Shown: positions 55,577-61,115 of the stretch, in pieces
Layout: the number at the start of each line of letters is the position of its first letter
Numbering within the stretch: the first letter of the stretch is position 1
DNA from: Bradyrhizobium sp. ISRA464
GTDB lineage: Bacteria; Pseudomonadota; Alphaproteobacteria; Rhizobiales; Xanthobacteraceae
Direction of reading: 5' to 3'
Assembly (NCBI RefSeq): GCF_029910095.1
Contig: NZ_CP094526.1
Location: 4,340,001 to 4,404,000 of the forward strand
DNA length: 64,000 nt
Position numbers and translations under genes: made by a program
Notes under the pieces: generated by a model
Seen by the model: only the letters and a program-made list of their open reading frames with translations
Told to the model about the DNA's origin: nothing
Databases searched by the model: none

Positions 55577-56152
55577 ATGACCCTTCCCAATGATCTCGAC
55601 AAGCTGCGATCGGAGATGAGCGCTGCGGTCAAGCGGCACTGGAAGGCATTCCTGTTCGAAGGCATCCTGCTGGTGATCCTTGGCATCGCCGCTCTGATCG
55701 TGCCGCCGCTGGCGAGCCTCGCCGTCACGATCTTTCTTGGCTGGATGTTTCTGATCAGCGGCATCGGCGGACTTATCGCGACGTACTGGGCGCGCAACAT
55801 GCCGGGCTTCTGGTGGTCGCTGATCTCGGCCGCCCTCGCCGTTCTCGCCGGCCTGGTTCTGCTGGCGCGTCCGCTTCAGGGTGTGCTGACGCTGACCATT
55901 GTCGTCGGTGCCTATTTCGTCGCCGAGGGCGTCGCCACCATCATGTACGCGCTGGAACACCGCCGCGAATTGTCCGGGCGCTGGTCGTGGCTAGCGGTCG
56001 CCGGCCTGATGGACATCGTGATCGCATTCTTCATCATCGCGGGCCTGCCGGGCTCGGCGCAGTGGGCACTTGGTCTCCTGGTCGGCCTCAACCTGATGTT
56101 CGGCGGGGCCACCCTGATCGGTATGGCGCTCGCGGCCCGCAGCTCCTCATGA
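55577..56152 (+). CDS. HdeD family membrane protein
   Basis: A 191-aa protein of six helices with the HdeD (DUF308) repeat pattern: HWKAFLFEGILLVILGIAALIVPPLASLAVTIFLGW and three paired hairpins. In E. coli HdeD contributes to acid resistance at high density; in rhizobia the function is not established. It starts 32 bases after the prsW-like gene and probably shares its transcript. Confidence 0.9.
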   Translation: MTLPNDLDKLRSEMSAAVKRHWKAFLFEGILLVILGIAALIVPPLASLAVTIFLGWMFLISGIGGLIATYWARNMPGFWWSLISAALAVLAGLVLLARPLQGVLTLTIVVGAYFVAEGVATIMYALEHRRELSGRWSWLAVAGLMDIVIAFFIIAGLPGSAQWALGLLVGLNLMFGGATLIGMALAARSSS

Positions 56153-56175
56153 CCGCAAACCGGTCGCATTAAGGG

Positions 56176-56204
56176 GTGACAAGCCAAAATCGATAGGCTA
56201 TAGA
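56176..56204 (+). promoter_or_regulatory. promoter of the aroF leader transcript
   Basis: gtgaca (56176-56181) and tataga (56199-56204) are separated by exactly 17 bases, a good housekeeping promoter. Transcription should begin around 56210-56212, at or within a base or two of the leader ATG. Confidence 0.6.
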
Positions 56205-56211
56205 GCCGCCC

Positions 56212-56292
56212 ATGATCACCGTTGCCACCAGCTATTTTTGGTACTTTAGCTACGACAGCTTGCTGGCGGCAGGAGGATCGCGCTCAATCTGA
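56212..56292 (+). CDS. aromatic-rich attenuator leader peptide
   Basis: A 26-codon frame, starting MITVATS and ending GGSRSI, holds seven consecutive-region codons for Tyr, Phe, Trp, Tyr, Phe, Ser, Tyr at 56233-56253 (SYFWYFSY with the flanking Ser). Six of the seven are aromatic. No Shine-Dalgarno is possible if the promoter at 56176-56204 is right, so it would be translated as a leaderless mRNA, as known for rhizobial trpL. It is a sensor for charged tRNA-Tyr, tRNA-Phe and tRNA-Trp, not a functional protein product. Confidence 0.8.
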   Translation: MITVATSYFWYFSYDSLLAAGGSRSI

Positions 56293-56342
56293 AGAATTGC
56301 AGCAAACGTCCGAAACAAGCCGCCAGACCTGGCGGCTTTTTT
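56224..56342 (+). promoter_or_regulatory. transcription attenuator of the DAHP synthase gene
   Basis: Four segments can pair in mutually exclusive ways. Segment 1, gccaccagc (56224-56232), pairs with segment 2, gctggcggc (56262-56270), with 8 of 9 pairs. Segment 2 (56263-56270) can instead pair perfectly over 8 bp with segment 3, gccgccag (56319-56326). Segment 3, agccgccag (56318-56326), pairs perfectly over 9 bp with segment 4, ctggcggct (56329-56337), followed by six T: a Rho-independent terminator. The aromatic codons lie between segments 1 and 2, so a ribosome stalled there covers segment 1 and frees the antiterminator. Confidence 0.85.
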
Positions 56343-56377
56343 GTGTGCCGGCAGGTCCCAATCCTAAGGAGCCAGCC

Positions 56378-57463
<1,086 letters not shown>

Positions 57464-57793: not shown

Positions 57794-58018
57794 CTAGCCC
57801 TTATTTCTCGCGCCCGGTCCGGGACATCGATGATAGCGCAGTTGCGTCGCCCCTGTGCTGCGCAATCCTGCACCTTCCGTATATCGGCCATGGTGCCATG
57901 TAGCCAGATTCCCGCGGCGACCAGCACCACAAACAAGCCGAGCATCACAGCATTTTCGATCCCGCGGCGGCCCTCGTCCTCGGGCGGCTCCTGCCGTCCT
58001 TCCCCTGCGCTGGCTCAC
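57794..58018 (-). pseudogene. frame-disrupted small membrane protein, relative of the 20-kb gene
   Basis: Directly after kamA, one frame reads PPEDEGRRGIENAVMLGLFV, a membrane helix, RKVQDCAAQGRRNC, then AIIDVPDRARE. It aligns with the 20-kb frame (DEGGGRRG ... KIQDCVMA-GRTNC). But no start codon precedes PPEDEG in this frame: the only candidate, a GTG overlapping the kamA stop as GTGA (58018), is in another frame. At the 3' end this frame runs on 169 bases into the next gene to 57610, while the GTG frame stops at 57794. One or two indels are therefore likely. A truncated start at 57945-57948 is the alternative. Confidence 0.4.
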
Positions 58019-59106
58019 GATTCCGGCGGGTACAGGTGAACGTCACCACAATAATCGACGACACGATACTGCCGTTCCGTGGAACCTTCACGTTCCCGGG
58101 AATCTGACTGCGACAAATAATCCGGCCCGATCGGCGCCTTGCCATGGCCGCCGGGAATGTCGAGCACGTAGTCGGGCTGGCACAGGCCTGAGACCCGCCC
58201 CCGCAAGGAGCGCATCAGGCTTTGCCCGGCCTCGATCGTGGTGCGCAGATGGCCGGTGCCCGGCGCGAGATCGCCGTGATGCAGGTAATAGGGCTTGATC
58301 CGGCACTCGACGAAGGCGCGCATCAGCGCTTCGAGCGTCGCGGCGTCGTCATTGACCCCGCGCAGCAACACGGACTGGCTGACCAGGGGGATGCCGGCGT
58401 CAGCGAGGCGCGCACAGGCTGCACGCGCGTTCTCCGTGAGTTCGCGCGGATGATTGGCGTGGAGCGCGACCCAGGTCGTCGCGCCATCCAGCCGCAGCGC
58501 CGCGATCATCTCTGGGTTGACGCGTCCGGGATCGGCAACGGGTACGCGGGTATGGATGCGGATGATCTTGACGTGATCGATCCGGGCGAGATCGGCCATG
58601 ATCTCCGTCAGCCGGCGCGACGACAGCATCAGCGGATCGCCGCCGGTCAGGATGACCTCCCAGATCTCCGGATGCGCGCGGATATAGTCCAATGCCGCAC
58701 GATAGGCGTCATCGGACAACGCGGTGGACTTGCCCGGCCCGACCATTTCACGACGGAAACAGAACCGGCAATAGACCGCGCAGACGTGGACCAGCTTGAG
58801 CAGCACCCGGTCGGGATAGCGGTGGACGATCCCGGCGACCGGCGAATGCGCGTCGTCGCCGATCGGATCGGCGTTCTCGCCAGGCTGCTCCACGAGCTCC
58901 TCGGCACTCGGAACGAATTGCCGCGCGATCGGATCGTCGGGATCGGCCGGGTCGATCAGCGCGGCAAGCTCCGGCGTCACCGCGACGGCATAGCGCGCAG
59001 CGACCTTTTCCAGCTCCGCCAACGCCTCCACCGGGGCGAGCCCGGCGTCGACCAGCTCGCGCGGTTGTCGCAGCGTTGCAGCAAGTTTGGGATCGATTCT
59101 GTTCAT
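58015..59106 (-). CDS. epmB: lysine 2,3-aminomutase-like radical SAM protein (EpmB/KamA)
   Basis: A 363-aa radical SAM enzyme with the cluster motif CAVYCRFCFRRE (CxxxCxxC) and the PLP/lysine regions ILTGGDPLMLSSRRL and HHGDLAPGTGHLRTT. In the EF-P pathway EpmB converts (S)-alpha-lysine into (R)-beta-lysine. The start overlaps the stop of epmA as ATGA and efp is divergent from epmA, so this is EpmB-like rather than a catabolic KamA. Length fits the short EpmB-like form. Confidence 0.92.
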   Translation of the reverse strand: MNRIDPKLAATLRQPRELVDAGLAPVEALAELEKVAARYAVAVTPELAALIDPADPDDPIARQFVPSAEELVEQPGENADPIGDDAHSPVAGIVHRYPDRVLLKLVHVCAVYCRFCFRREMVGPGKSTALSDDAYRAALDYIRAHPEIWEVILTGGDPLMLSSRRLTEIMADLARIDHVKIIRIHTRVPVADPGRVNPEMIAALRLDGATTWVALHANHPRELTENARAACARLADAGIPLVSQSVLLRGVNDDAATLEALMRAFVECRIKPYYLHHGDLAPGTGHLRTTIEAGQSLMRSLRGRVSGLCQPDYVLDIPGGHGKAPIGPDYLSQSDSREREGSTERQYRVVDYCGDVHLYPPES

Positions 59107-60155
59107 GTTTCTCCCGCAGGCGGTGTCCAGACCACCTGGTCAATTCTCGGCGCGCCGCTCGCCAGCATCACCAGCCGATCGAAGCCGAGCGCAACGCCGC
59201 TCGCCTCGGGCATCTGGCCGACCGCGGCAATGAAGTCCTCGTCAAGCGGATAGCGCTCACCGTAACGCCTGGCCTTCTCGTCCATTGCCGCGGTGAAGCG
59301 ATCGCGCTGCTCAACGGCATCGGTCAGCTCGCCGAAGCCGTTGGCGAGCTCGACGCCGCAGGCATAGATCTCGAAGCGCTCAGCGACACGCGAATCGCCG
59401 GCCTTGGTGCGTGCCAGCGCCGCTTCCGGCGACGGATATTCGAACAGCACCGTCAGGCGGCCCTGCCCCAGATTGGGCTCGACATGCTCGACCAGCACCT
59501 TGCTGAAGATATCGGACCAGGTGTCGTCATCCGCAATCCGCACCCGTTCCCGCGCGGCCGCCGCCAGCGCTGCCCGATCGCCCTCGCCGCCTGTAATTGT
59601 CGCCAGCAGATCGATGCCGGCAAAGCGATCGAAGGCCGCCGCGACGGTCAGCAGTTCCGGCTCGACGAAGGGGTCGGCGGTCTTGCCACGGAACGAGAAC
59701 CGGCCGATCCCGGTCGCCTGCGCGGCGTGCGCGATCACCACGATCGTATCGGCCATGATGGCATCATAGCCTGCATTGGCGCGGTACCATTCCAGCATCG
59801 TGAATTCAGGCAAGTGCAGATCACCACGCTCGCGATCGCGGAACACCCGCGCGAACTCGTAGATTTTCGGCTCGCCCGCCGCGAGCAGCTTCTTGCAGGC
59901 GAATTCCGGCGAGGTGCGGAGATAGCGTGTCGCATGGGAGCCGTCGGCCCGCGCCAGCCGGGTGCGGGGCGCGTGGATATGGGTCTCGTTGCCCGGAGAA
60001 ATCTGCAGGATCCCGGTCTCGACCTCGGTAAATCCCTGCTCCTCGAACCAGGCCCTGAGCGCCTTCGTCACCGCGCTCCGCGCGAGCAGGAACGGCTTGC
60101 GGTCAGCGTAGCGCGACCGCGTCCACCACGGCGAAGGGTTGTCTGGTCCGGTCAT
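59103..60155 (-). CDS. epmA: EF-P lysine aminoacylase EpmA (GenX/PoxA)
   Basis: A 350-aa class II lysyl-tRNA synthetase paralog without the anticodon-binding domain. Class II motifs are visible: motif 2 YEFARVFRDRERGDLHLPEFTMLEWYRA, and motif 3 ANGFGELTDAVEQRDRF with ALGFDRLVMLASG. EpmA activates (R)-beta-lysine and attaches it to a lysine of EF-P. It overlaps epmB by ATGA and is divergent from efp. Confidence 0.95.
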   Translation of the reverse strand: MTGPDNPSPWWTRSRYADRKPFLLARSAVTKALRAWFEEQGFTEVETGILQISPGNETHIHAPRTRLARADGSHATRYLRTSPEFACKKLLAAGEPKIYEFARVFRDRERGDLHLPEFTMLEWYRANAGYDAIMADTIVVIAHAAQATGIGRFSFRGKTADPFVEPELLTVAAAFDRFAGIDLLATITGGEGDRAALAAAARERVRIADDDTWSDIFSKVLVEHVEPNLGQGRLTVLFEYPSPEAALARTKAGDSRVAERFEIYACGVELANGFGELTDAVEQRDRFTAAMDEKARRYGERYPLDEDFIAAVGQMPEASGVALGFDRLVMLASGAPRIDQVVWTPPAGET

Positions 60156-60548
60156 TTCGATCTCGCCCGATGTGACGAATCGCCATCAGCAACCGCCATC
60201 ATTTGTTTAAGAGACAAATATAAGCCCTTGATATTGAAACGATTGCCAACCGACATGATCTTTGTCTCACGCGAGTGCGGCGACGTTTGTCCCTTCTTGT
60301 CGAAAGACACCAGCCTTGTCCACGTGGCTGACCCCTGTCGAAGCCCGCGCCAAGGCTCGCAAAATCTCAGATGACATGGGAAGACGGCCCCGATTGGCCA
60401 GATCGGAGACCTGCAATCTGCCGAAATCAGCCGCAAAAGGCTGGCATCTCAGGGACAAATCAGTATGTTGCAGCCCGAAATCGCCGCCAAGGCAGAGGGG
60501 TTGCCGATCCGGTTTGCGCCCCCGCCTCCCAAATTCAGGAAAACACCT
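60156..60548. other. divergent promoter region between epmA and efp
   Basis: About 390 bases shared by the two divergent EF-P pathway genes. The frame of efp is open back to an ATG at 60465, but those 28 codons ([13 protein letters not shown]...) are not EF-P sequence. I see no other gene; a 94-codon minus-strand frame crossing it has no support. Confidence 0.5.
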
Positions 60549-61115
60549 TTGAAAGTCATCGCCAGTTCCATCCGCAAGGGCAACGTCATCGAACAGGACG
60601 GCAAGCTCTATGTGGTGCTATCAGCCGAGAACATTCATCCCGGCAAGGGCACCCCGGTCAGCCAGATCGAAATGCGCCGCATCGGCGACGGAGTTAAGGT
60701 CTCGGAGCGCTACAAGACCACCGACCAGGTCGAGAAGGCCACCGTCGAGGACCACAACTTCAACTACCTCTATGAAGACGGCGACGGCTTCCACTTCATG
60801 AACGCCGAGAATTACGACCAGGTCCAGGTCTCCAAGGAGATCGTCGGCTCTTCTGCGCCGTATCTGCAGGAGAACATGACCGTGAAGCTCTCGCTGCATG
60901 AGGGCAATCCGGTCGCGATCCAGCTGCCGCAGCGCGTGACGCTGGAAGTCGTCGAGACCGAGCCGGTGACCAAGGGCCAGACCGCCTCCTCGTCCTACAA
61001 GCCCGCGGTGCTTTCCAACGGCGTGCGCACCGGCGTGCCCCCGCACGTCACCACCGGCACCCGCATCGTGGTCATGACCGAGGACGGTTCCTACGTCGAA
61101 CGCGCCAAGGATTAG
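60549..61115 (+). CDS. efp: elongation factor P
   Basis: A 188-aa translation factor that rescues ribosomes stalled on polyproline. It has the three-barrel EF-P pattern: [38 protein letters not shown] (modification-site Lys at about residue 33 in the HPGKG loop), [23 protein letters not shown], and [19 protein letters not shown], the C-terminal signature. The start is TTG at 60549 with AGGA seven bases upstream, giving exactly the usual length; ATG 60465 would add 28 foreign residues. The target of EpmA/EpmB is therefore encoded beside them. Confidence 0.95.

Follow-up and report, generated by a model that had tools for sequence, protein, structure and literature searches.

A probable attenuator with an aromatic-rich leader peptide precedes type I DAHP synthase genes in Alpha-, Beta- and Gammaproteobacteria

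In C. glutamicum, the aroF gene is preceded by the attenuator aroR with its Phe-Tyr-Phe leader (PMC4046766), which a review citing Neshat 2014 describes as induced by Phe limitation with no effect of Tyr (PMC11802643). Other cases are older or predicted. An attenuation hypothesis was put forward for E. coli aroF (Camakaris 1980, via PMC8632094), RNA motifs were predicted in Shewanella before aroF ("attenuator sensing tyr-tRNA," after Camakaris) and aroH (PMC2659441), and predicted attenuators before aroA-tyrA of Vibrio and others come from an attenuator database (PMC1173090). Attenuation at gammaproteobacterial DAHP synthase genes has therefore been suggested before. The uORFC-13-1 motif is likewise a predicted attenuator before an aroF DAHP synthase gene, with a Phe-coding uORF (PMC8632094). 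As for rhizobia, the rnTrpL transcript of S. meliloti starts with the ATG of trpL (PMC7298713), and among the leaderless mRNAs of B. japonicum 192 transcription starts fall exactly at the start codon (PMC4842269).

A survey of proteobacterial regulons mentions, in its available part, attenuation for trp and pheA, and it assigns the control of the E. coli DAHP synthase isozymes to TyrR and TrpR (PMC5343134). The main text of a survey of premature terminators, in the portion available, is without aroF, aroG or DAHP (PMC2965389), and neither the element presented here nor related terms were found in the accessible portions of PMC2864571, PMC12125101 and PMC4117421. No description of the present leader family was found in the available portions of the open-licence literature; much other literature lies outside this scope. 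An earlier note on the present DNA named no characterised example in Bradyrhizobium, and aroR of C. glutamicum is an already reported attenuator of a DAHP synthase gene, according to the source sections available.

The window analysed is a stretch of 64,000 nucleotides from Bradyrhizobium sp. ISRA464 (contig NZ_CP094526.1, positions 4,340,001 to 4,404,000). In it, the gene for a type I DAHP synthase, closest to those of Bradyrhizobium by protein comparison and tree (87% to B. algeriense), follows the elements listed in table 1. The earlier note had read here a promoter GTGACA-N17-TATAGA with an ATG at the expected start, a 26-codon leader with six aromatic codons in seven and three alternative pairings, and all of these were found again. 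In detail, the ATG at 56212 lies 7 nt from the promoter, the leader translates as MITVATSYFWYFSYDSLLAAGGSRSI* (56212-56292) with its aromatic codons at 56233-56253, and the enzyme starts with GTG at 56378, within the interval marked in the earlier note. The terminator stem joins 56317-56325 with 56330-56338 in 9/9 pairs, with six T at 56337-56342. Segments 1 and 2, claimed to match in eight of nine positions, gave 9/10 with one mismatch on recounting (56223-56232 with 56262-56271), which is close to the claim. The pairing of segments 2 and 3 is that of GCTGGCGGC with GCCGCCAG.

An intrinsic terminator lies between the leader and the gene, and the short leader ORF abounds in codons for the end products under control. 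The terminator is the single site of its kind in 55900-56700, where shuffles give 0.5 by expectation, and the predicted folding of the stretch is somewhat more stable than that of its shuffles (z −2.25; 4/200 as low). The promoter is absent from the output of the consensus promoter scan because that scan requires the −10 box to end in T. Farther downstream, at 58015-60155 (minus strand) and 60465-61115 (plus strand), an EpmA-like EF-P lysine ligase is located beside a lysine-2,3-aminomutase-like protein, and an ORF of the same region resembles EF-P by eye; this is perhaps an EF-P modification cluster.

Table 1. Elements of the putative attenuator and the gene that follows it (positions in the window)
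Feature	Position	Strand	Remarks
−35 element GTGACA	56176..56181	+	Read from the sequence; TGACA/GGACA precedes most alpha leaders
−10 element TATAGA	56199..56204	+	Spacer 17; ATG 7 nt downstream
Leader peptide gene, 26 codons	56212..56292	+	ATG at predicted +1, without Shine-Dalgarno; from translation and conservation
Segment 1 (GTTGCCACCAGC)	56221..56232	+	Partner is segment 2; duplex −15.7 kcal/mol, p 0.02; family-wide support weak
Control codons Tyr Phe Trp Tyr Phe Ser Tyr	56233..56253	+	Aromatic run also in relatives
Segment 2 (GCTGGCGGCA)	56262..56271	+	Partner common to segments 1 and 3
AGGAGG, Shine-Dalgarno-like, within the leader	56271..56276	+	Directly after segment 2
Segment 3 (AAGCCGCCAG)	56317..56326	+	Pairs with 2 or 4
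Segment 4 (CTGGCGGCTT) and T run, intrinsic terminator	56329..56342	+	
Possible segment 5, GCCGGCAGG	56347..56355	+	3′ of the T run; complementary to segment 4, 8/9
AAGGAG, Shine-Dalgarno of DAHP synthase	56366..56371	+	Read from the sequence
Type I DAHP (3-deoxy-7-phosphoheptulonate) synthase, aroFGH family	56378..57463	+	TIGR00034 532 bits (cut-off 173); PF00793

Ribosome-mediated transcription attenuation is, with a probability of about 0.9, the control acting on this DAHP synthase gene, and the switch would probably turn the gene on when aromatic amino acids run short. We infer the start site, the stalling and the amino acids that are relevant in the cell. RNA polymerase would start at A56212, give or take a base or two, the transcript would open with the leader's own AUG, and the ribosome would initiate there without a Shine-Dalgarno sequence. 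Under a shortage of charged tRNA for Tyr, Phe or Trp, the ribosome would stall on codons 8-14 and cover segment 1, leaving segment 2 free to pair with segment 3 once the latter is made; the 3:4 terminator would then be blocked and DAHP synthase transcribed. When all three are plentiful, the ribosome would pass codon 15 and either mask segment 2 or leave it to segment 1; with segment 2 unavailable, segment 3 would pair with segment 4 and transcription would stop at 56337-56342. If a stall on any aromatic codon antiterminates, the leader would be an OR gate for the shortage of any aromatic amino acid.

The occurrence of the element was examined in 123 upstream regions, namely 80 related loci fetched by protein, 42 from the family sample and the window, with a rule asking for a short ORF with at least four aromatic residues in eight codons and a terminator starting within 110 nt. 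Leader and terminator were found in 104/123 regions of alpha-, beta- and gammaproteobacteria, a count that is not independent because the loci are interrelated and some species are possibly included twice. The same rule returned 0/123 reverse strands and 0/366 dinucleotide shuffles. The 19 misses consist of L045, with only 52 nt of upstream DNA, L047, with a leader present and a terminator below the rule, and 17 loci without the element, corresponding to 17/80 of the fetched relatives. The element is missing in the rows of Methylotenera, Rhodocyclales, Chitinimonas, Ferrovum, Enterovibrio (two loci examined) and Undibacterium and in L053, L057 and L068. Within the family sample of the window, the enzyme is carried by 43/295 genomes and 4/47 genera, and the leader is present in 43/43 of the genomes that bear it.

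For these and the following counts, one locus (L080) missed by the first detector passes the final rule, and the leader set fell from 134 to 133 after removal of one duplicate. Aromatic ORFs without a proper terminator (L053, L060 and L072) were left out of the promoter, duplex and folding counts, one alpha leader without a detected terminator out of the duplex and folding counts, and three leaders out of the counts of Shine-Dalgarno-like stretches and segment 5.

Both pairings of segment 3 covary in alignment A1, which holds 58 leaders. The 3:4 helix is paired in 99.4% of the cells, with three pairs changed on both sides (31 double-change cells); its covariation score was reached by 0/500 shuffles, which do not keep relatedness, and slid versions were 15-63% paired. 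The 2:3 helix is 89.6% paired, one end pair accounting for 28/42 of the unpaired cells, and three of its pairs carry double changes (16 cells). Among shuffles of the same kind, likewise blind to relatedness, 0/500 reached its score and 16/500 its number of double-change pairs, with slid versions 17-61% paired. A compensating example is that of L122 and L123, where CTGGCAG stands opposite CTGCCAG. Segments 2 and 4 have a core sequence in common, as expected because both compete for segment 3.

Leader by leader, the 2:3 duplex beats mononucleotide shuffles (p ≤ 0.05) in 55/76 alpha, 33/44 beta/other and 6/12 gamma cases, and the 1:2 duplex in 36/76, 15/44 and 4/12, respectively; in L086 the segment detector picked the wrong stem. 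The 1:2 protector is the weaker pairing, good in the window and not supported family-wide by the shuffle tests. An antiterminator excluding the terminator is present as a potential structure, on the basis of covariation and folding. The conserved layout and the covariation of the pairings confirm, at the level of sequence comparison, that the observed arrangement is real and more than chance. Conservation of codons and stems among relatives had been named beforehand in the earlier note as a check, and it proved favourable to a leaderless, aromatic-rich leader that attenuates DAHP synthase. Far from being confined to Bradyrhizobium, the element occurs with type I DAHP synthase in three classes.

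Upstream of the promoter lies, in the same orientation, an HdeD-like (DUF308) ORF that ends at 56152, some 165 nt short of the stem. The hairpin could be taken merely as the terminator of that gene, and the aromatic ORF as a product of chance. This is extremely improbable, given that a separate promoter lies in between, that leader and terminator never coincided in the 366 shuffles, and that segment 2, which is outside the terminator, covaries with segment 3. Leader and hairpin also persist without the HdeD-like gene, which is present in only 30/109 of the loci searched (L002-L110), all labelled Bradyrhizobium or the same genus; the leader is therefore independent of it.

The promoters of the attenuators showed a constant spacing in alphaproteobacteria. 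The −10 box of the best promoter lies 6-9 nt before the ATG in 77/77 alpha leaders (74 of them at 6-7), a result favoured by the choice of the first ATG in six leaders with ATGATCATG, and 10.3% of shuffled upstream sequences place it there. The spacer is 17 in 72/77. In gamma leaders, the best −10 box is at 7-10 nt in 10/12 cases. Beta/other leaders have their best promoter scattered (22/43 at 20-32 nt before the ATG), so that led leaders without a Shine-Dalgarno are likely there. Binding to the anti-Shine-Dalgarno of −5 kcal/mol or lower, in equal windows of 20 nt, was found at 58/60 enzyme starts versus 11/60 leader starts.

The putatively leaderless layout, with the ATG at the predicted transcription start, is fixed in alphaproteobacteria, and both the promoter spacing and the Shine-Dalgarno comparison agree with it. 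An earlier start codon served by an ordinary ribosome binding site, which would make the leader not leaderless, is rather improbable. In-frame upstream starts in several relatives, the affinity of the 11/60 alpha leaders and the distant promoters of half of the beta/other set (22/43) would be in line with such a start; the 77/77 alpha −10 boxes at 6-9 nt with the 17-nt spacer in 72/77, and a window without a Shine-Dalgarno at that place, are against it.

The proposed stalling was explored with a folding sketch, thermodynamic and not a measurement, in which a ribosome was masked at each codon and the RNA ended after segment 3. For the window, the probability of 2:3 was 0.86-0.94 with the ribosome on codons 8-14, 0.29 on codon 15, at most 0.09 on codons 16-25, 0.28 on codon 26, 0.48 on the stop codon and 0.30 with no ribosome. 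With five footprint sizes, codons 8-12 gave 0.93-0.94 and codons 17-24 at most 0.17, codons 13-14 varied with the assumed footprint (0.19-0.93), and the stop codon gave 0.28-0.49, segment 2 not needing to be covered from there. This profile would place the end of the aromatic run close to the point from which a stalled ribosome starts covering segment 2. Codons 2-7 also reached 0.89-0.93; with antitermination predicted throughout codons 2-12, the sketch does not set the aromatic codons apart on their 5′ side and bounds the sensing window only at its far end.

For the full-length RNA at equilibrium, the terminator prevails with the ribosome on codons 9-14 (0.82-0.97) and is favoured at nearly all stall positions of the window, with codons 6-8 as exceptions. 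Antitermination would therefore have to be kinetic, decided during transcription. Over all leaders, a stall on the aromatic codons raised 2:3 above its level with the ribosome at the stop codon in 110/132 (63/76 alpha, 11/12 gamma and 36/44 beta/other) and did not in 22.

Two further elements may modulate the switch. The 4:5 duplex beats mononucleotide shuffles in 45/76 alpha, 6/12 gamma and 2/44 beta/other leaders; a general 4:5 pairing in the last group was rejected as unsupported. GCCG occurs within 16 nt after the T run in 67/75 alpha, 10/12 gamma and 3/43 beta/other leaders. Segment 5 gives little independent evidence because 48/67 of the alpha cases are one identical sequence pair with one fixed mismatch; it is possible that it locks the readthrough form. 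Within the leader, a purine-rich, Shine-Dalgarno-like stretch reaches −5 kcal/mol in 124/130 leaders and in no spacer control. Against their own shuffles, 19/75 alpha, 3/43 beta/other and 0/12 gamma leaders stand out (p ≤ 0.05), and as the beta and gamma shuffles do about as well, the stretch may be a matter of composition only. Perhaps it acts as a ribosome pause.

All 355 TTN codons of the aromatic runs encode Phe and none Leu, which is partly due to selection for aromatic content and is not expected of a merely U-rich tract; the TAN codons (328) are necessarily Tyr, since a stop would close the frame. Phe, Trp and Tyr occur together in the runs of 71/77 alpha, 12/12 gamma and 21/44 beta/other leaders, and only Phe and Tyr in 6/77, 0/12 and 23/44. 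The three-amino-acid leader of the earlier note hence describes the majority of alpha leaders and every one of the 12 gamma leaders and fails as a label of the family, because Trp is absent from the 6/77 alpha and 23/44 beta/other runs.

A switch mainly for Phe and Tyr, or for Phe alone, with an incidental Trp codon, is a real if minority possibility. It would suit the runs without Trp and the behaviour of C. glutamicum aroR, whose Phe-Tyr-Phe leader, in the account available, answers limitation of Phe and not of Tyr (PMC11802643). It fits less well with the retention of Trp in 71/77 alpha and 12/12 gamma runs and with the modelled stall at Trp10, which antiterminates in the same way as its neighbouring codons. 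Sensing of all three aromatic amino acids remains the preferred reading for the leader of the window.

The leader is closely linked to type I DAHP synthase. The covariance model R1, constructed from A1, has one strong match in the genome of the window (109.7 bits), the next reaching 24.4. In the class draw, an even draw, TIGR00034 is present in 9/337 genomes, and R1 matches over its full length in 9/9 of them (57.9-109.7 bits); some of the searched genomes are closely related to sources of the R1 training set or have leaders in common with it. The match is directly upstream on the same contig in 8/9; in G481 leader and gene are on different contigs. The phylum draw gave matches in 27/249 genomes at E ≤ 1e-6, with the enzyme just downstream in 27/27 and true members as low as 39.7 bits.

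At E ≤ 1e-3, R1 lists 43/337 genomes of the class draw, 34 of them beyond the nine with the enzyme. These extra genomes score about 25-31 bits, with the exception of G497 (46.9 bits), which was rejected as its match sits at the 3′ end of argB, and the enzyme is absent from 21 loci fetched among the extra matches (L140-L160). Apart from G497, matches above 40 bits in both draws are only beside the enzyme. Since true and false matches are not told apart by R1 score alone, membership was judged by position beside the enzyme.

The lowest-scoring match among these nine, in G571 (L139, 1059-1192), is a degenerate leader (MNAARTLSARFYPRSIAGGIRGA) whose aromatic residues are a single Phe and a single Tyr. 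A terminator that looks intact and then the enzyme follow it, and the sensor of this attenuator is perhaps being lost. A bin labelled Anaerolineae (L056) contains the enzyme with an odd leader (MSRYFSFFSWYGYF...), possibly mis-binned DNA.

The tree of 81 enzymes includes 63 with the leader, 17 without and one unknown, with L047 scored by eye as having a leader though it fails the detection rule. The leader needs five changes on this tree, for a mean of 15.7 with shuffled labels and 0/500 as low. Fourteen of the 17 absences fall within one group of 18 rows which also holds three with the leader, and this clustering suggests that the leader may have been lost within one group of enzymes, within the limits set by the rooting, the quick tree method and the long branches. 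The leaders of L122 and L123 (genus g45 of the same family) resemble by eye those of xanthomonads and Bordetella (PLAEEG tail) and not those of Bradyrhizobium, hinting at a separate acquisition of enzyme plus leader.

The earlier note spoke of the entry enzyme of the shikimate pathway, but the enzyme of the window is not the only one. A type II DAHP synthase is also encoded in this genome (729 bits, G000:C1:4996537-4997868, L196), and its 500 nt of upstream sequence showed no short ORF with an aromatic run.

DAHP synthase controls the entry of carbon into aromatic synthesis, and the element would be an RNA-level counterpart of TyrR/TrpR control in rhizobia, relatives of Burkholderia and xanthomonads. 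The set of leaders allows specificity with or without Trp, leaderless or led translation and loss of the switch to be traced on one enzyme tree. A wider proposal would see an ancient attenuator family outside Rfam, inherited with type I DAHP synthase in the three classes and acting as a general aromatic OR gate, with segment 5 locking readthrough in alphaproteobacteria and xanthomonads and the Shine-Dalgarno-like stretch timing the ribosome; taken as a whole, it is speculative and doubtful.

The terminated leader might have an additional role in trans, through the small RNA, the peptide or both, as rnTrpL/peTrpL does in Sinorhizobium. Its layout, a leaderless mini-mRNA of ~130 nt with its own promoter and terminator, is similar to that of rnTrpL in the available account (PMC7298713); as the cis function alone can explain the conservation, such a role is unlikely, and cis attenuation remains the reading followed here. 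In comparison with S. meliloti trpL/rnTrpL and Bja-peTrpL, the element is likewise a ribosome-dependent rhizobial attenuator; those leaders, as far as described in the parts available, have Trp codons only and precede trpE(G), so that both peptide and gene differ from those of the window (PMC7298713). A search of the window's genome for the known Bja-peTrpL peptide gave no match, an outcome that carries no weight as evidence of absence. The uORFC-13-1 motif comes from Acholeplasma and environmental sequences (24 examples) and has a ribosome binding site in the portion of its description available, unlike the leader of the window.

The E. coli, Shewanella and Vibrio proposals place attenuation before DAHP synthase genes, as here, and give, in their available parts, no aromatic-run leader of the present kind. 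The aroR-aroF locus of C. glutamicum has likewise an aromatic leader peptide and attenuation before a DAHP synthase gene, but in an actinobacterium and with three aromatic residues and no Trp, the likeness being one of description only. At the leader, both in the window and in the loci of 12 relatives, no family of Rfam 15 exceeded its gathering cut-off. Low-threshold matches (RNAI 21.4 bits versus 47, Phe_leader, BjrC1505 and Thr_leader) were rejected as far below the gathering scores, and as no Rfam family exists, annotation based on Rfam misses the element. Phe_leader (RF01859) combines an aromatic leader with an intrinsic terminator, as in the window, but its match there has 20 bits against a cut-off of 55 and covers only 56296-56345.

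The E. coli ilvGMEDA leader senses several related (branched-chain) amino acids with one leader, and the present leader would share this multi-amino-acid sensing, but for aromatic instead of branched-chain amino acids. Not found described for DAHP synthase and these classes in the literature searched, the switch is a widespread variant of a classical mechanism.
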